The position numbers were made by a program, and so were the translations under genes. DNA of 46,954 nucleotides from Candidatus Omnitrophota bacterium. GTDB lineage: Bacteria > Omnitrophota > Gorgyraeia > Duberdicusellales > 4484-171. This document shows, piece by piece, positions 29,869 to 36,851 of the stretch. The notes under the pieces were generated by a model. That model was not told the origin of the DNA. It was given only the letters and a program-made list of their open reading frames with translations, and made no database searches. Where the stretch lies: NCBI GenBank assembly GCA_020352775.1, contig CP070684.1:148695-195648 (forward strand), written 5' to 3'. The number at the start of each line of letters is the position of its first letter. Within the stretch, counting starts at the first letter, position 1.

Positions 29869-30603
29869 TTATGGATAGATAATGGCAGGATAACCATCTT
29901 CAAGGAGTTGTAGAAACACTCTTTTTGCCTGATCTCTTTGTTTAAACTTTCCAACCCTTACCTTATAAAGAATGATTCCACCCTTTCTGTCTTCCACAAT
30001 ATACACAGGGTATTGGACTTGGAGTTCCTTTTTGATAGTTAAAGCATTCGCTTCTTTGCTAAATGCACCAATCTGTATTGTAAAAAAGTCTCCATAATCC
30101 TGAAGGATTTCAACGAACTTCATTTCGCTACAGCTAGGGTATTTTTCTTTTATCATGCGTAAATACATTTTTTTTAAACCCCAATCACCTTCTTTACATG
30201 CAATCTGGGCAAGCCGAAGATACACCCTGGGTAGATGCTGCATATTGGGATATTTTTGCACGATGTCCCAATAAAGCTCCTTTGCTTTGGGAAAGTCTCT
30301 CTCAAGAAAATACGTGTCAGCTAGTTTCATCAATCCTTGTTCATAAAATTGAGAACTAGGGAATCTGCGCAATAATTTTCGCAGATGAGCCCTGACCTTT
30401 GAATGCTCCCCAACTTTCATATATATGAGACCTAAAAAATACAATACTTCATCATTTTCGCGTAGACGCTCGGCCTTTTTTATTGCCTCATGGTAATCAC
30501 CATAAAGATAATCTTCATAGGCATCACGAATGGTGTAGGAATAGGCAGAAAATGAATAAATTAAAAACCAAAAGCTAAAAACTAAAAATATTATTTTTTT
30601 CAT
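29869..30603 (-). CDS. TPR-SPOR envelope protein
   Basis: 244 residues with a signal peptide (about 1-22). TPR-like helical repeats fill the middle (YGDYHEAIKKAERL, VLYFLGLIYMKVGEH, YWDIVQKYPN). A C-terminal SPOR domain follows (about 170-244, FTIQIGAFSKEANA...YKVRVGKFKQRDQA). SPOR domains bind denuded septal peptidoglycan, so a periplasmic role in division or envelope assembly is likely. It overlaps the miaB stop as ATGA, coupling an envelope protein to tRNA modification genes. Confidence 0.82.
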   Translation of the reverse strand: MKKIIFLVFSFWFLIYSFSAYSYTIRDAYEDYLYGDYHEAIKKAERLRENDEVLYFLGLIYMKVGEHSKVRAHLRKLLRRFPSSQFYEQGLMKLADTYFLERDFPKAKELYWDIVQKYPNMQHLPRVYLRLAQIACKEGDWGLKKMYLRMIKEKYPSCSEMKFVEILQDYGDFFTIQIGAFSKEANALTIKKELQVQYPVYIVEDRKGGIILYKVRVGKFKQRDQAKRVFLQLLEDGYPAIIYP

Positions 30604-31706
30604 TTGTATGCAAAAGAAATGCTTTTTTGTAAATTTAATAAAATCTGGTGGCGACGTTCTTTCTCTTCTTGTGAAATATCGTCTTTTAATTCTGCGGCAG
30701 CTGTGCCGGGACGAGGCGAATACTTAAAGATATAGGCATAACAAAACTCGACTCGCTCCATCATATCTTTGGTTTGCAAAAAGGCATCTTCAGTCTCAGA
30801 AGGAAAACCCACAATTACATCAGTGCTCAATGCTCCCCTAACAATTTTCTTATAATCACTAACTAACCCTAAATAGTCTTCTCGTGTATATCCTCTATTC
30901 ATTAATTTTAATATTCGATTAGAGCCTGACTGAAAAGGCAAATGCAGGTGCTTTTTTATATTTGGTTTTTGAGCCATTAACTCAAATAATTCTTTCGAGG
31001 TATTCTTGGGATGCGCTGATACAAAATCAATCTCCTCTATCCCTTCACTATCAGCAACCATTCTTAGCAATTTCACAAAATCAATTGTCGGCAATCGGTA
31101 ATCATTAACATTCTGTCCCAGAAGCGTAACCTTCTTTATCCCCCGGACCACATTGCGCCTTGCTTCCTCTATTATATCCTCAGGGCGCCGCAAGCGCAAC
31201 TCTCCCCGTACATATGGAACAACGCAATAAGAACAATAATTAGAGCATCCTGTGGAAATAACAACCTGAGTATGATTTGGCTGAATAGCATATGAGGCTC
31301 GATAAAATTCCTCTCCTCGCAACCTATCCTGTAAATCTACAATTCGTTCGCCACTAGCGCGTATTCGCACTACATATTCAGGAATAAATTCTAGGCTACT
31401 TGGCCCACAGATAAGATTAATGTGCGGCATTTTTTGAAATATATCGTTCCCTTTATTTTGAGCCATACATCCAATAAGCCCAATCACTCTACCATTACTG
31501 CCCAAAGCTTTGAGAGAACCTAAAAATGATAGAGCTCTATCCTCTGCATGTGCTCTCACAGAACAGGTATTGACCAAAATAACATCTGCATCCTCGGGAT
31601 TCTGCACAAAAGAGTACCCCTGCTCAAGAAAAAGCCCCGTGAGAGCCTCTGAGTCGCGGTCATTCATCTGACAGCCGAACGTACGTATAAAAACTTTTTT
31701 TGTCAT
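30600..31706 (-). CDS. miaB: tRNA-2-methylthio-N6-dimethylallyladenosine synthase, lacking TRAM
   Basis: 368-residue radical-SAM methylthiotransferase acting on tRNAs carrying i6A37. The N-terminal domain contributes three cluster cysteines (FGCQMNDRD, NTCSVRAHAED, IGCMAQ), and the radical-SAM site is CSNYCSYC. The final part reads YKYSPR-like FKYSPRPGTAA and stops at SFAYK just where the TRAM RNA-binding domain should begin; normal MiaB has about 430-450 residues. A 4-base overlap with the next gene supports this as the true end. Its 5' end lies beside an unusual series of miaB-start remnants. Another MTTase (MtaB or RimO) is possible but GCQMN favours MiaB. Confidence 0.9.
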   Translation of the reverse strand: MTKKVFIRTFGCQMNDRDSEALTGLFLEQGYSFVQNPEDADVILVNTCSVRAHAEDRALSFLGSLKALGSNGRVIGLIGCMAQNKGNDIFQKMPHINLICGPSSLEFIPEYVVRIRASGERIVDLQDRLRGEEFYRASYAIQPNHTQVVISTGCSNYCSYCVVPYVRGELRLRRPEDIIEEARRNVVRGIKKVTLLGQNVNDYRLPTIDFVKLLRMVADSEGIEEIDFVSAHPKNTSKELFELMAQKPNIKKHLHLPFQSGSNRILKLMNRGYTREDYLGLVSDYKKIVRGALSTDVIVGFPSETEDAFLQTKDMMERVEFCYAYIFKYSPRPGTAAAELKDDISQEEKERRHQILLNLQKSISFAYK

Positions 31707-31922
31707 AATTTCTTATCTTGTTTTAAGTTATGTAAATTTTTAGCAGTCTGCACACTTCTCTTAAATTCCTTAAAAAGTCCCGTTCGTTCATCTGCTTTAA
31801 CCTAACCTTGTACAAACTAAATGTCTCAAATTTATTTAAAACAAACAGGAATTATATCAATATGCTTTTCCCCTGACAAGGAAGGTCTTAGTGACATAGT
31901 AGATGGCCTTTTGCTTCTATCT
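31707..31922 (-). promoter_or_regulatory. miaB upstream region with strong promoter
   Basis: The -35 TTGTCA (31874-31879) and -10 TATAAT (31851-31856) have a 17-base spacer, predicting a leader of about 140 bases. Within that leader lies a decayed miaB-like segment (31778-31819) that can encode QMNERD. No other gene is visible. Confidence 0.65.
31778..31819 (-). repeat. Decayed miaB-start remnant in the miaB leader
   Basis: On the minus strand this reads QMNERD, the consensus sequence that follows FGC in MiaB, and parallels the same segment of the intact gene at 31653-31694 (15 of 18 bases identical over the QMN.RD codons). No start codon or open frame remains. Confidence 0.45.
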
Positions 31923-32615
31923 TCATATATATAGCTGATATTTTTCATCAAAATCACTGCTTTTATATAATTTTACTGTAGTAAAAAAACCTTTATATTT
32001 ATCATAATAATCTTCACCAGGACATCTTACATGATAACATTCATGGGGATTTGGTTCACTATATTCGATAGTATTTTTTCCAATTATTGGTACCGGAATG
32101 AGTGCAATACCATTTGGTTTCAGAATCCTTTTTATCTCAGATAAAGCCGACAAGTCCTCTTTTATGTGCTCCAAAACATGCGATGCATATATGAAATCGA
32201 AACAATTATCGCTGAATGATAGCTTAGTCAGATCCTCCTTGTAGTCTACATTTTCCATATTCAGATCTGCAGTTAAATATTCTTTAAACATATGTTTGAA
32301 AATATTTCGTAAAAAATCTTCGGGAGCAAAATGGAGCATCTTCATATTATTTGGGTTTTTATCTGTGGTTATTTCTTTAAAAACCAAATATTGCAGACGA
32401 TGCCTCTCCAACGAACCGCATTTAGTACATTTTGCTTTTTTTCTTTCTCCTGTTTCAGCCCTAAGACTTTTAAATCGACCGTAATAATTACAAATTGGAC
32501 AAATGTAACAATTCTGAACTTTAAATAATCGAAACAAGCTCGAAGATATTCTTAAATATAATATTTTATTAGCAGCAAGAACGATATGTTTGACAACTTT
32601 TCTTAATTTGCTCAT
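31923..32615 (-). CDS. Zinc-ribbon class I SAM methyltransferase
   Basis: 230 residues. An N-terminal zinc ribbon (CYICPICNYYG and CTKCGSLERHR) is followed by a Methyltransf_11-like SAM domain: MLHFAPEDFLR, LTADLNMENVDYKEDLTKLSFSDNCFDFIYASHVLEHI, and ILKPNGIALIPVPI. The methyltransferase domain is somewhat compressed. Members with this zinc-ribbon start are common in surface-polysaccharide clusters; the substrate here is not known. It is AT-richer than the genes around it and sits between miaB-start remnants, suggesting recent arrival. Confidence 0.75.
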   Translation of the reverse strand: MSKLRKVVKHIVLAANKILYLRISSSLFRLFKVQNCYICPICNYYGRFKSLRAETGERKKAKCTKCGSLERHRLQYLVFKEITTDKNPNNMKMLHFAPEDFLRNIFKHMFKEYLTADLNMENVDYKEDLTKLSFSDNCFDFIYASHVLEHIKEDLSALSEIKRILKPNGIALIPVPIIGKNTIEYSEPNPHECYHVRCPGEDYYDKYKGFFTTVKLYKSSDFDEKYQLYI

Positions 32616-32629
32616 TCTAAATATCTCAA

Positions 32630-32687
32630 CTTACGTACGGTTCCCTTTATGATTTTTTTGTAACTCCCCATTTTGCAATCAGTTAAC
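32630..32687 (-). repeat. Leader repeat copy 1 (upstream of methyltransferase 1)
   Basis: 58 bases that align without gaps to 33717-33774, 40 of 58 identical by hand count, including GAGTTACAAAAA and the end GTACGTAAG. Both copies translate in the same frame to ELQK...GN.T and then TAA, so they look like decayed 3' ends of one former gene. The methyltransferase gene starts 15 bases downstream. Confidence 0.6.
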
Positions 32688-32744
32688 CACTAAAATATAT
32701 ATCCCTCAAGGTCTGCAAAATCAGTCTGCATACCTTACGCCAAC

Positions 32745-32765
32745 GGTCAACCGAACGTGCGTATG
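32745..32765 (-). repeat. miaB-start-like remnant between methyltransferases 1 and 2
   Basis: The plus-strand bases 32751-32764 match the intact miaB 5' end (31676-31689) at 13 of 14 positions (ACGTTCGG region). The match is short, so it may be chance; its position at a module junction makes it notable. Confidence 0.35.
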
Positions 32766-32825
32766 CATACACTGCGTCCGGTTTTTCTGCAAGTATTTGT
32801 ATTTCCTTGAGTTGACACTCGACCT

Positions 32826-33695
32826 CTATTGTAAATCATTTCGCATAACAAATAAATACCCATTTTTGGCTTCACATATAAAAGGAAAATATCTATTTGG
32901 GATGATTGCTGAAATCACTTTCCAAATTGGTAGACTACTTGTATGTACATCCTCAACTACAAACCAGCCATGGGGTTTCAATTTTTCCAAAGCAAATATA
33001 AGTGTAGCAATATTTGCGTTTGGAGAATGAAGCCCGTCATCAATTATTAAATCAAATTTTTCATTTCCAAGAGCTATTGAAACCTCGTTGAAAGAGTTCA
33101 AATCAGTCTGGTCTAGAAAAAAAGTCTTTATGCGTTCTTCTTGAAAAATAATATTTCTGTCTATATCAGCGCCGTAAATCATAGAATTTGGCAAAAAATC
33201 ACGAAAAGCCCGTAAGGATGCACCGGGGTAACCACCTTGACACATATGGGAAACCACGTCTATGTTCGTTGTCCCTATGCCTATCTCAAAAATGGTTACT
33301 TGGTCCGAATGCCTACCCGCAAGGATGCTTCCGTAAATAAGGTGGTAATTGTGCAAAGATGATTTGTCGCTACCATATTTATTAAATAGATCAGCAAGTT
33401 GTTTGGCTGCTAATATCGATATATCTTTGGTGCAAATCGATTCAATCTGTTTCATAGCCACCGCTGGATATTCTAATGCTTTCATCAATTCACAAATTAA
33501 AGGAAAAGTCTGTTGAGCTGAAAGCATCGTCAGGATAGCTCTCCCTTTTATTGAACCTGCAGAATTTGGGGCAAATTGAATTAGCTTTCTGTTGAGATCA
33601 TGGTTAGTAATGACTCCGTGCCTAAAATCTGTTCTTGATATTGCGCGTATAAAAAATATTAACTTTTTAATTTCACCAATCAGCTTCTTCAGCAT
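32826..33695 (-). CDS. Class I SAM methyltransferase (MycE/macrocin-type)
   Basis: 289 residues. After an uncharacterised N-terminal part, LADLFNKYGSDKSSLHNYHLIYGSIL and FEIGIGTTN...GASLRAFRDFLPNSMIYGADID resemble the MycE-like sugar O-methyltransferases (LTDL..KYG.DKG..H.Y...Y, E.GIGGS L.....F.....GIDID). FDLIIDDGLHSPNANIATL follows as the catalytic and metal-site region. A polysaccharide or glycolipid sugar is a plausible substrate, but this is inference. ATG follows GGAGGGAGC. AT-rich compared with thyX and miaB. Confidence 0.75.
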   Translation of the reverse strand: MLKKLIGEIKKLIFFIRAISRTDFRHGVITNHDLNRKLIQFAPNSAGSIKGRAILTMLSAQQTFPLICELMKALEYPAVAMKQIESICTKDISILAAKQLADLFNKYGSDKSSLHNYHLIYGSILAGRHSDQVTIFEIGIGTTNIDVVSHMCQGGYPGASLRAFRDFLPNSMIYGADIDRNIIFQEERIKTFFLDQTDLNSFNEVSIALGNEKFDLIIDDGLHSPNANIATLIFALEKLKPHGWFVVEDVHTSSLPIWKVISAIIPNRYFPFICEAKNGYLFVMRNDLQ

Positions 33696-33716
33696 GCTCC
33701 CTCCGTTTAAAATCCA

Positions 33717-33774
33717 CTTACGTACAGTTACCTTCTCTCCATTTTTGTAACTCTATATTTCCTAAGCGCTTAAC
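33717..33774 (-). repeat. Leader repeat copy 2 (upstream of methyltransferase 2)
   Basis: 58 bases homologous to 32630-32687 (see that entry). It ends in GTACGTAAG 22 bases before the methyltransferase 2 ATG and can be read as ELQKWREGNCT followed by TAA. Confidence 0.6.
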
Positions 33775-33833
33775 TACTACGATAAGCTTCTCCTAAGAAA
33801 TGTAAAACTGACATGTAATAACGCTTCATCTGA

Positions 33834-33856
33834 CAGCCGTATGTCTTAATATAGAT
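33834..33856 (-). repeat. Exact 23-nt direct repeat, miaB N-terminus copy A
   Basis: Identical to 35292-35314. Here it lies in a short open frame beginning ATG at 33862-33864 that reads MPTIYIKTYGCQMK, the N-terminus of a MiaB protein, then leaves the family (RYYMSVLHFLGEAYRSS, stop). It is therefore a miaB start fused to unrelated DNA, not the start of the existing miaB, which reads MTKKVFIRTFGCQMN. Confidence 0.8.
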
Positions 33857-33883
33857 CGTAGGCATGATTTGTGCGAATTTAGT

Positions 33884-34558
33884 TTATTTTGTTGATATTT
33901 TTGAGAATTTTTTTATAAATGATTTTAGAAGACCGGGCAGGGTCCTCTTCAAGAAAAATCTTGACCTTACCATGTAATCATAACACGTAGCCTCTATAAT
34001 TGACGAATGCCTTTTTAAGGTAATAGAGTATAATCTATGCCTCTTTAAATTATTTTCAACAAATATCCTTGGCTTTCTTGCTTTAATAAACACCCCGGGG
34101 TATAAATAATCTTTTTCTATGGTTTCTATATCAAAATCTGAAAATATATCTTTCATATCCGATACCTCATACCTCCAGAAATCAAAAGGGGCACCGTGAT
34201 ATCCAAAACCTTTTGATCGCGTGGTAATGAGTATTATGCCTCCCGGTTTTAAAACACATTTTATATTATGTATTACTTTTCGCCAATTTCTAACATGTTC
34301 CAATAGCTCACAGGAAATCAACAAATCAAATCTATCATAGCCAAATTCAGAAATTAAATTTTCTGCTTTACATATTTTATCTACTCCTGCCCCCCTCTGT
34401 AAGTCTACCCCAATATAACTAGCCGGGTTCAATGTTTCAACAATTGATCTTAAAGACCCATTAACATCCAATGCTCCTACGTCAATTACAGATTTTCCTT
34501 CTATATCTTGTTTTTCTAAGTTCTTTGCCCCAAATTCAATACAAGCCTTATCGCACAT
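33884..34558 (-). CDS. Class I SAM methyltransferase (Methyltransf_11 type)
   Basis: 224 residues. Motif I is SVIDVGALDVNGSLRSIV; SYIGVDLQRGAGVD carries the acidic SAM ribose contact; FDLLISCELLEHVRNWRKVIHNIKCVLKPGGIILITTRSKGF is the post-motif region. FGYHGAPFDFWRYEVSDM is a frequent substrate-side motif in polysaccharide-cluster methyltransferases. The basic C-terminal end may contact membrane or ligand. No clear RBS is seen before ATG 34558. It is flanked by the exact 23-nt repeat copies together with the GC-rich island. Confidence 0.75.
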   Translation of the reverse strand: MCDKACIEFGAKNLEKQDIEGKSVIDVGALDVNGSLRSIVETLNPASYIGVDLQRGAGVDKICKAENLISEFGYDRFDLLISCELLEHVRNWRKVIHNIKCVLKPGGIILITTRSKGFGYHGAPFDFWRYEVSDMKDIFSDFDIETIEKDYLYPGVFIKARKPRIFVENNLKRHRLYSITLKRHSSIIEATCYDYMVRSRFFLKRTLPGLLKSFIKKFSKISTK

Positions 34559-35020
34559 TTTCGTTCCTAATCAATCTACTTTGATTCGCTTAATCTTTTT
34601 AATAATCCCAATATCATCCTTCGCTACTCACATATAATGCCAAACATCCTATTCTTTAATTTTTCACTTACCTTAATTTCTTTCTAGATATTCTTAGAAC
34701 CCGTACTTCAAGAAAGTAAATTCTTCAAGGCCAGACAAACCTGAATACTACAATCCCGACCTTGTGGCCTATAAATAAATGATACATCCCCAAGCAAAAT
34801 ATATCAACAAAATAATATACGAAGATATATCTTTCAAAAGGAAAAGGCTGACTCGGAGCGCAGGACGCGTAAACCCAAAGGGTTGAAGCCCGAGTATCGA
34901 GACAGACTTTGGGCGGGCGGGGTGTGCTATGATGAGGCGACAACTCGACTACGCTCAGGACAAGAAATAACAATATTTAGAAGGCAAAGGGGGGGCGGGC
35001 GAAACCGAAGACTGGATGAC

Positions 35021-35102
35021 GCAAGCAGGCAAAACTTCTCTCTTGCGGTGCGACGCTCAAGAATAAAGAATTTTTTGGGTTTTAGGGTTTTGCCTGACTT
35101 GC
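35021..35102. repeat. Long imperfect inverted repeat in the GC-rich island
   Basis: Left arm 35021-35035 and right arm 35087-35102 are complementary over 15 pairs with one bulged T. The 51-base interior contains a second stem (TCTTG/CAAGA). The structure could be a folded RNA or a miniature transposable element; no terminal duplication was found. Confidence 0.6.
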
Positions 35103-35291
35103 GGCAGACAGGCTGAGGCTGAGACCGCAGGGACAGCGCCGAGCATAGGCGCAGGCGGTGGATCAACCGCCGAATCACATAGGCAATGCATCGCCTGCCT
35201 TCCTTCAGTCAGCCATGTCCGCCTGAATTCTTAGATTGGGGTTGCGGAAGGAGAGGAAAATTTTAAGGATTGTATAACCTATAGATAAGGT

Positions 35292-35314
35292 CAGCCGTAT
35301 GTCTTAATATAGAT
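35292..35314 (-). repeat. Exact 23-nt direct repeat, miaB N-terminus copy B
   Basis: Identical to 33834-33856 and encoding IYIKTYG followed by TGA. It lies 31 bases beyond the thyX stop codon, so it may mark the original position of a miaB gene directly after thyX. The similarity ends just after the GG-CTG of the GC codons. Confidence 0.8.
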
Positions 35315-35345
35315 TTTCAATGGTGAGTTTGACGTATGTGAAAAG

Positions 35346-36851
35346 CTACTTTATTTTTCGTGCAGGGGGCAATGCTGCTTTGGTTACCTTAGGGGGATAC
35401 CCTAAAATATTTTGGTAAATTTTATTGTATTTGTCCTTGCCGCCGGCCATTGCAAACACAAGCGGCATAACCCTTTTTGCCTCACTCGTCATGGCATGAG
35501 AGATATTCTGAATATCCCATTGAGCATGGGCATCTTCTCTCAAACGGGATATATGATACAATTCCCTTGCATTAAGCCGCATCAATACTCTTCTTCTGTG
35601 AGCATTTGTTAAAACATAAGGGGCTACCAAAGGAATTTTTTTATTGATAGCTGCATATACTTCATTTGTCTTTTCCGCGATTTCTTTAAAATATTTTCTC
35701 ATGCCTATTTCTTTAATAGACTCTGGCATAGTAATGCCTAACTTAGGGTCATAGCCTTGAGCAGTAATAGTTGCCATTCGGTGGCGTTTCAATTGGCCAA
35801 AACAAGCCGCTGACAATACAATGCTAAAAATGAGATTAACATATTCAAATTCCCGCAGCATGGAATCATAAAACTGCATGTTCTTCCAGGCAGTTTTAAA
35901 CATGTTTGTCTTTGTGTCTCGGGATAAGTTTTTTACGATTGTAAGGCATTGTTTATATGGAAGATTACTAGAAACGTGAAGCATTGAGGCAGCAACGATA
36001 TTATCGGCACCCTCTGTGAATTCGACTAGTTGAACTTCTTGCCTAACTTTTTTAGGGCTAGTATTCCTTATTATTTCATTAGCAAGCTCTTTTAGCTCCG
36101 GGTAAGTTCTTTGGTCGCGTTCATTTGCATCATGAAAAATGACAATAGAAGGAGCAATTTCTGCGATCTGTTTATAAATCATGCGTCCCAGTTTTTGAAC
36201 TTCAACTAAAGGATGAGACGCGAAACGTCGCAACATAAGCTCTAAAGTACGAGCATTGACAGTCATGCCTACCTGAGATTCTGTTGCTAATGCAGTAACG
36301 TAACGGGCATCTTCTTTTGCCCAGCCCTCAAGGAGGTTATGCTTCTTAGGGTTAGCGGCTAAATCAGGATACTTTTTAAAAACATGTTTTTTAAGTTTCT
36401 CGAAAAGCTTAAAATAAGCCTTATTCTGCTTACGAATAATATCGACAAACAGCTTTTCGAACTTGGTGCCCTTTACCTCATCTGGAATGACAAAATCCTT
36501 ATCCAGAGTGATGTAACGCTGAGATTTCTCAGTATAAGAACATAGCCTAAACTTCTCAACTTCCTCCATCGCATAACGGGAAACCCCTACGATATCCAAG
36601 TTAAACACTGCATGTTCAGCAACAGAGTGATGGCCCATTTTGAATATGATGGTAGAATTGGATTTACGGGATTTCCCAACTTCTCTTCTAGCATTTTTCC
36701 TGATTTGATTAATAGGGCGGGAATCCCGGCTTATGCGAGCGTAAGCAGCCGAAATCACCTCCGGAGTTACATCTTGGCGCTTACCCCTTTTTTTCTGGAG
36801 CTCTCGCAAGACTTCTGTATCTACATTGTAGCCCGCTAAATAAACCTTCAT
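35346..36851 (-). CDS. thyX: Tandem-domain FAD-dependent thymidylate synthase homologue
   Basis: 501 residues, about twice the usual ThyX (~230), with two ThyX-like repeats. The first (about 50-240) has GHHSVAEHAVFNLDIVGVSRYAMEEVEKFRLCSYTEKSQRY; the ThyX signature RHR..S....S.RY is degraded to KFR at its first residues but keeps S.....SQRY. The second (about 260-480) has the RHR of KRHRMATITAQGY but lacks the serines. The two half-signatures may build one functional site, or the protein may have a different FAD-related job. Ends in TAG. No thyA is in the window. Confidence 0.8.
   Translation of the reverse strand: MKVYLAGYNVDTEVLRELQKKRGKRQDVTPEVISAAYARISRDSRPINQIRKNARREVGKSRKSNSTIIFKMGHHSVAEHAVFNLDIVGVSRYAMEEVEKFRLCSYTEKSQRYITLDKDFVIPDEVKGTKFEKLFVDIIRKQNKAYFKLFEKLKKHVFKKYPDLAANPKKHNLLEGWAKEDARYVTALATESQVGMTVNARTLELMLRRFASHPLVEVQKLGRMIYKQIAEIAPSIVIFHDANERDQRTYPELKELANEIIRNTSPKKVRQEVQLVEFTEGADNIVAASMLHVSSNLPYKQCLTIVKNLSRDTKTNMFKTAWKNMQFYDSMLREFEYVNLIFSIVLSAACFGQLKRHRMATITAQGYDPKLGITMPESIKEIGMRKYFKEIAEKTNEVYAAINKKIPLVAPYVLTNAHRRRVLMRLNARELYHISRLREDAHAQWDIQNISHAMTSEAKRVMPLVFAMAGGKDKYNKIYQNILGYPPKVTKAALPPARKIK

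Follow-up and report, generated by a model that had tools for sequence, protein, structure and literature searches.

A probable decayed array of large serine recombinase elements at the start of miaB in an Omnitrophota genome

Tandem islands at tRNA genes, the tycheposons for example, grow by serial insertion at one site and leave fragments of their target behind. Large serine recombinases (LSRs) drive islands of the ECC type, which insert at rlmH, carry multiple copies of the attachment (att) sites and include recombinase-less remnants (PMC6222049). Burkholderia phage JC1 encodes a serine recombinase that inserts at the 5' end of rimO, whose first codons are changed by an ATG that the element supplies (PMC9144972). 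In a wide range of bacteria, a family of integrases has specialised on dusA and inserts at the 5' end of this tRNA-modification gene, and rimO, not miaB, is found among the tRNA-modifier genes listed as targeted in the same study (PMC4482086). Our literature search, which left out most subscription papers and all bioRxiv preprints, returned no report of an LSR or serine integrase at miaB, only the rimO and dusA precedents for such enzymes at miaB or methylthiotransferase genes, and nothing linking Omnitrophota to serine recombinases. Here we analyze a 47-kb stretch of DNA, called the window at its full length, that covers positions 148695-195648 of a single-contig 1.275-Mb Omnitrophota genome. 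Its segment between thyX and miaB is very probably a decayed accretion array of LSR integrative elements that used the start of miaB as their bacterial attachment site, attB.

Such arrays resemble SCCmec and ECC, whose Ccr LSRs act at rlmH, in gathering LSR islands with variable cargo at one conserved gene, with multiple att copies and recombinase-less remnants. They differ in their target, the 5' end of miaB instead of rlmH, in relying on one LSR instead of ccrAB, and in rewriting the first codons of the target gene. The NCBIfam models nearest to the miaB-associated LSR are CcrB (221 bits) and CcrC (193 bits), scores so far below the Ccr cut-offs (900) that the enzyme is not a Ccr; membership of SCC/ECC was rejected on this score and on insertion at miaB. 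Phage JC1 also integrates, by a serine recombinase, at the beginning of a gene for a MiaB-family methylthiotransferase and provides that gene with another ATG, but it is a single prophage at rimO for which neither an accretion array nor single-gene modules have been described. The dusA integrases and islands share the specialisation on the 5' end of a tRNA-modifier gene and differ in the gene chosen, whereas the tandem islands of tRNA genes share serial insertion but occupy tRNA genes and not a protein-coding start.

The minus strand of the window carries, in order, GT, thyX, a GC-rich island, three cargo genes designated MT3, MT2 and MT1, miaB, a SPOR/TPR gene, miaA and hflX. Between thyX and miaB, sequences resembling the start of miaB recur, and each of these echoes sits at a module boundary, as the first-pass annotation had noticed. 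A strict core pattern (hydrophobic-x-hydrophobic-x-T-aromatic-G on AC...YGGHTG) is found in the window only at 35292, 33834, 32745 and in miaB itself (ACGTTCGG/CTG at 31682-31672, minus strand), always on the same strand and never on the opposite one. Over 537 kb of miaB-upstream DNA the two strands stand at a ratio of 56 to 7, the minority of 7 being mostly palindromic or inverted sites themselves. The sequences 35292-35314 and 33834-33856 do form the exact 23-nt direct repeat encoding the miaB start that had been reported; the 35292 copy translates as KIYIKTYG, and the reading frame at 33834 begins MPTIYIKTYGCQMK, giving the displaced miaB start MPTIYIKTYG. The weaker echo proposed at 32745 is genuine, its frame reading KTGRSVCIRTFG, and the echoes align to the miaB starts of relatives.

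The sequence that follows the echoes was compared with right-arm profiles derived from confirmed or likely elements of other genomes, without miaB sequence before the crossover, and 60 shuffled windows served as control. The best window match of the type-A profile lies at 35293-35250 (9.5 bits; one of the 60 shuffles as high) and that of type B at 33835-33770 (20.1 bits, E 4.6e-5; no shuffle as high), while the type-C profile matches at 32749-32672 (12.0 bits; again no shuffle as high). Core scan and arm profiles together delimit three attL scars on the minus strand: a type-A scar at 35250-35321, outermost and adjoining thyX, with the displaced KIYIKTYG start and its arm; a type-B scar at 33763-33865, with the MPTIYIKTYG start and its arm; and a type-C scar at 32662-32758, in which the miaB core ACGTTCGG is followed by a right arm beginning TTGACCGTTGGCGTAAG. 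Besides these, the profiles revealed a fourth arm, of type C, upstream of MT3 (34576-34631, minus strand; match at 34631-34576, 19.2 bits, E 6.8e-5, 0/60 shuffles as high), whose left half is not recognisable.

No recombinase had been thought visible in the window, but the 3' tail of one is present. The best window match of an LSR-tail hidden Markov model falls at 32850-32749, just outside the 32745 scar (E 0.006). At the DNA level this interval resembles LSR 3' ends at z = 7-8, a score that none of the roughly 392 null segments attained, and the match holds after removal of the miaB-like part. We annotate it as the vestigial 3' end of an LSR gene (32749-32850, minus strand; ECQLKEIQILAEKPDAVYAYARS). 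Because arm profiles from other genomes fall on three echoes, and because this vestigial gene end abuts the 32745 echo, we read the segment as a decayed accretion array. As a search of the window's genome for PF00239 gave no match, leaving only this tail, the locus is a remnant: compared with a complete LSR-integrated element, it lacks the recombinase gene, whereas attL, the left half of the target joined to an element right arm, is present at three sites. In intact elements each arm type accompanies a particular LSR subclade (A, L072/L076; B, L086/L089/L107; C, L090), from which it would follow that at least three LSR subtypes visited the site.

If miaB itself had been duplicated and had then decayed, without any recombinase, the echoes would be leftovers of the extra copies. 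This would explain why the echoes encode miaB N-termini, why the left half at 35292 shares 23 nt with that at 33834 without a mismatch and why a weak stretch at 31778 includes similarity to the right half of the gene. However, at three sites no miaB sequence is found past the core, where arms of elements from other genomes match instead; an LSR tail precedes one echo, and intact elements occupy the same base in relatives. The arm profiles largely refute this explanation, which we consider very unlikely.

The recombinase is encountered intact in relatives. In one genome, G004, a 541-aa LSR gene runs into miaB and overlaps its start; it has the three domains by which the family was defined at a length of about 450-700 aa, Resolvase (PF00239, 2.7e-41), Recombinase (PF07508, 2.9e-21) and a zinc ribbon (PF13408, 5e-10). 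Of 384 genomes from this phylum, 117 encode homologues at E <= 1e-30. From about 38% identity upwards, the genes of these homologues stop at miaB with identical spacing, at about 30 loci. The exceptions are three that run into the arm of another element in tandem, one at an mtaB-like paralogue, frameshifted copies beside miaB, the pair L131 and L132 (alike in the N-terminal half only) and L091, which is unexplained. About a dozen more distant LSRs of the phylum sit elsewhere, and the miaB-targeting enzymes form a 35-member group with support of 100/99. A scan of GTDB genomes yielded 41 best LSR matches, 38 of which end at the miaB core and span Candidatus Omnitrophota, Elusimicrobia (Elusimicrobiota) and Margulisbacteria/WOR-1/Saganbacteria, counts that are not fully independent of the phylum set as the two sets overlap. 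None of the weaker GTDB matches (Bacillota and others) ends at the miaB core. A recombinase clade distributed over at least three little-studied phyla thus has one conserved protein-coding start as its landing site, the first codons of which are rewritten at each landing.

Several members of this clade depart from the usual arrangement. At L077 (G006:C14:2360-3979) the LSR ends at the start of the mtaB-like paralogue (TLGCKVN) and not at miaB, which is a target shift inside the methylthiotransferase family. Inverted att cores upstream of miaB elements, at about 16298 in L103 and about 3397 in L120 (element orientation), suggest inverted integration or inversion. The viral collection contains one 40% match, L222 (IMGVR_UViG_3300029286_003022), in which a clade LSR runs into a type-B arm and not into miaB, an arrangement that amounts to a tandem junction or a free attP. 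Among the matches listed, phages offered only relatives of about 27-34% identity and none with the same LSR.

How element and target are joined can be read from the intact loci. The stop codon of the LSR is the TGA inside miaB's CAGATGAA and the new miaB start codon lies within the LSR 3' end, so that element and host gene each supply what the other lacks. Similarity in the opening codons of miaB follows that of the LSR instead of that of the miaB body: L083 and L084 share 98% of their LSR and 98% of their N-terminal DNA with a miaB body at 48%, whereas L084 and L100 share 82% of the miaB body and 41% of the N-terminal DNA. Two genomes of one genus capture the locus before and after an insertion. 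In G106, element 1 sits at miaB; in G124, an 18,843-bp element 2 lies between element 1 and miaB. The attL-left halves of the two genomes agree at 91% and the attR-right halves at 90%, against 56% and 32% when the halves are crossed, and the flanks, once joined, give a gap-free alignment of 652 nt. Element 2 was therefore inserted cleanly between the two halves of attB. In this pair the base preceding TG goes with the left side, so exchange would most simply take place at the TG of GGNTG.

These observations can be assembled into a mechanism. The LSR would recognize the start of miaB as attB and catalyse its recombination with attP, and integration would cut at GG/NTG within the TFGCQMN codons of miaB. 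Beyond the element, the old miaB start up to GG would persist as attL, fused to the right arm of the element. The element would carry its own version of the first miaB codons, start codon included, in overlap with the 3' end of the recombinase gene, and miaB would thereby remain intact. As the left half contributed by the element mimics attB, the target would be regenerated and more elements could land, regeneration being in this case an active process. At the window site, recombinases of at least three subtypes (A, B and C) would have inserted in this way, and their genes would have been lost afterwards, probably by deletion; the order of these events is likewise a reconstruction. What the segment holds today is three scars, a bare arm, the tail of a recombinase gene and the cargo (the GC island, MT3, MT2 and MT1), which may be under selection or a passive load. 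The first-pass annotation had proposed repeated capture at the GCQMN-coding sequence with the start of the target left behind, which is essentially right given the LSR clade that ends at the miaB start, the tandem elements and the before-and-after pair; the correction is that only the left half, up to GG/NTG, stays, the element arm following it. A regenerating target suggests how islands pile up, and tandem LSR elements were indeed observed in one genome.

Four points weigh against reading the segment as such an array. The type-A arm match is weak by itself, given the shuffle that reaches its score. The window's genome is devoid of a serine recombinase, and the agent is therefore deduced from relatives. 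Over 23 nt, the left half at 35292 does not differ from that at 33834, while the element model predicts an inner copy derived from the element; the model would let the inner copy come from a host-mimicking element or from homologous exchange. Finally, the stretch around 31778 resembles the right half of miaB, which simple integration does not leave behind. This QMNERD echo, as it had been described, covers 31778-31831 on the minus strand (66% over 62 nt). Its part at 31778-31819 does score above 99.7% of window segments against miaB starts (0.3% score as high), but no recombinase arm matching it was found, and as a miaB echo it can be taken as suggestive only.

The same arrangement is found in relatives. 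In the same family, displaced echoes of the miaB start lie upstream of miaB in G006 (two, at L048), G030 (26 nt exact, L049), G032 (L063) and G007 (L058), most of them separated by one-gene modules, and the downstream order miaB-(SPOR/TPR)-miaA-hflX is largely conserved. This recurrence excludes an accident specific to the window; other genera have the layout too, echoes included. Assembly mixing or strain chimerism could be invoked for an assembly of unknown provenance, short repeats being able to mislead. Yet the genome is one contig, and the same architecture with fixed junctions appears in dozens of independent assemblies from three phyla. Misassembly cannot account for fixed junctions that recur throughout a phylum, and we grant mixing next to no probability.

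The modules themselves have the features of cargo. MT1 (31923-32615, minus strand, 30.6% GC) and MT3 (33884-34558, minus strand, 33.3% GC) are clear S-adenosylmethionine (SAM) methyltransferases (Methyltransf_11, 7.8e-13, and Methyltransf_23, 1.3e-10). The third SAM methyltransferase announced in the region, MT2 (32826-33695, minus strand), has only a sub-threshold match to Methyltransf_24. The GC content of MT1-MT3 is 31-36% against about 40% in neighbouring core genes, and MT2 has only weak partial matches in 3 of 57 relatives, among which no donor was found; low GC and scarcity of homologues are expected of cargo. The window methyltransferases gave no meaningful match to a defence library. 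Intact elements of relatives do carry recognisable phage-defence genes, namely Hachiman HamB, a CBASS cyclase with its phospholipase effector, SIR2 with HerA, Vsr, restriction-type methyltransferases (restriction-modification, R-M) and a caspase-like protein. Insertion by the LSR clade explains the gain of defence and other cargo beside miaB.

Single-gene modules with a repeated boundary site also evoke an integron-like cassette array driven by a tyrosine recombinase, and the genome does encode two such enzymes (PF00589, 293-296 aa). Both are distant, at 906.7 kb and 115.7 kb for a window at 148.7-195.6 kb, and of a size that fits XerC/XerD; inspection of the boundaries by eye showed no attC consensus, and at these sites it is LSR arms and the tail of an LSR gene that match. 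We hold this explanation to be extremely unlikely. A different possibility is that the one-gene modules lacked a recombinase from the outset, being non-autonomous cassettes that the LSRs of co-resident elements inserted in trans. LSR-less modules of about 0.8-1.7 kb do recur in several genera, at L048 (methyltransferase; TauE), L049 (RhuM-Fic), L113 (SIR2-like) and L063 (EF-P), but the LSR tail at the right end of the MT2 module points to deletion of the LSR there at least, and so to decay in at least one module. Insertion in trans is a possibility that we entertain with some doubt. With similar reserve, one may picture a serine-recombinase counterpart of the integron, in which short recombinase-less one-gene cassettes would be captured in trans at a self-regenerating attB in the miaB start, through several LSR subtypes sharing this target. 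The cargo at L063 (6206-6772) is an elongation factor P gene, lying between the displaced miaB start and miaB.

Displaced TFG starts provide a simple marker for mobile islands in uncultured genomes, and the many diverse LSRs with their defined att sites are candidate tools for genome engineering.

The flanks of the array are thyX on the outer side (35346-36851, minus strand; Pfam Thy1, 1.9e-59) and the target miaB (30600-31706, minus strand; TIGR01574 miaB, 373 bits over cut-off, with Pfam UPF0004 and Radical_SAM). PF00919 matches miaB and two paralogues over cut-off in this genome, plus one weak fragment. The GC-rich island (34726-35291, 48.8% GC) contains, at about 35167-35258, a repeat whose sole other occurrence is at a 779-kb locus of the same genome, and a module leader at 33688-33808 (minus strand) is common to the leader of MT1 and to that locus (G000:C1:779237). 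There, after a MATE efflux gene, a type-B leader arm and a YbjQ-like gene (L009:7239-8022, G000:C1:779238-780021) accompany the GC-rich repeat without any miaB echo, and the locus may be a relocated or off-target element.

The miaB gene varies in other ways among relatives. In-frame insertions near residues 72 and 205, found in L061 (2681-2890) and also in L057, L059, L062 and L063, are in L061 tandem repeats of the VQGLGFRVQG type. In L050 (634-700) and L044 the miaB starts are near-perfect palindromes (TGGCAACCAAACGTCTTTATATAAAGACGTTTGGTTGCCA), and L044 has a second such palindrome between miaB and the SPOR/TPR gene.

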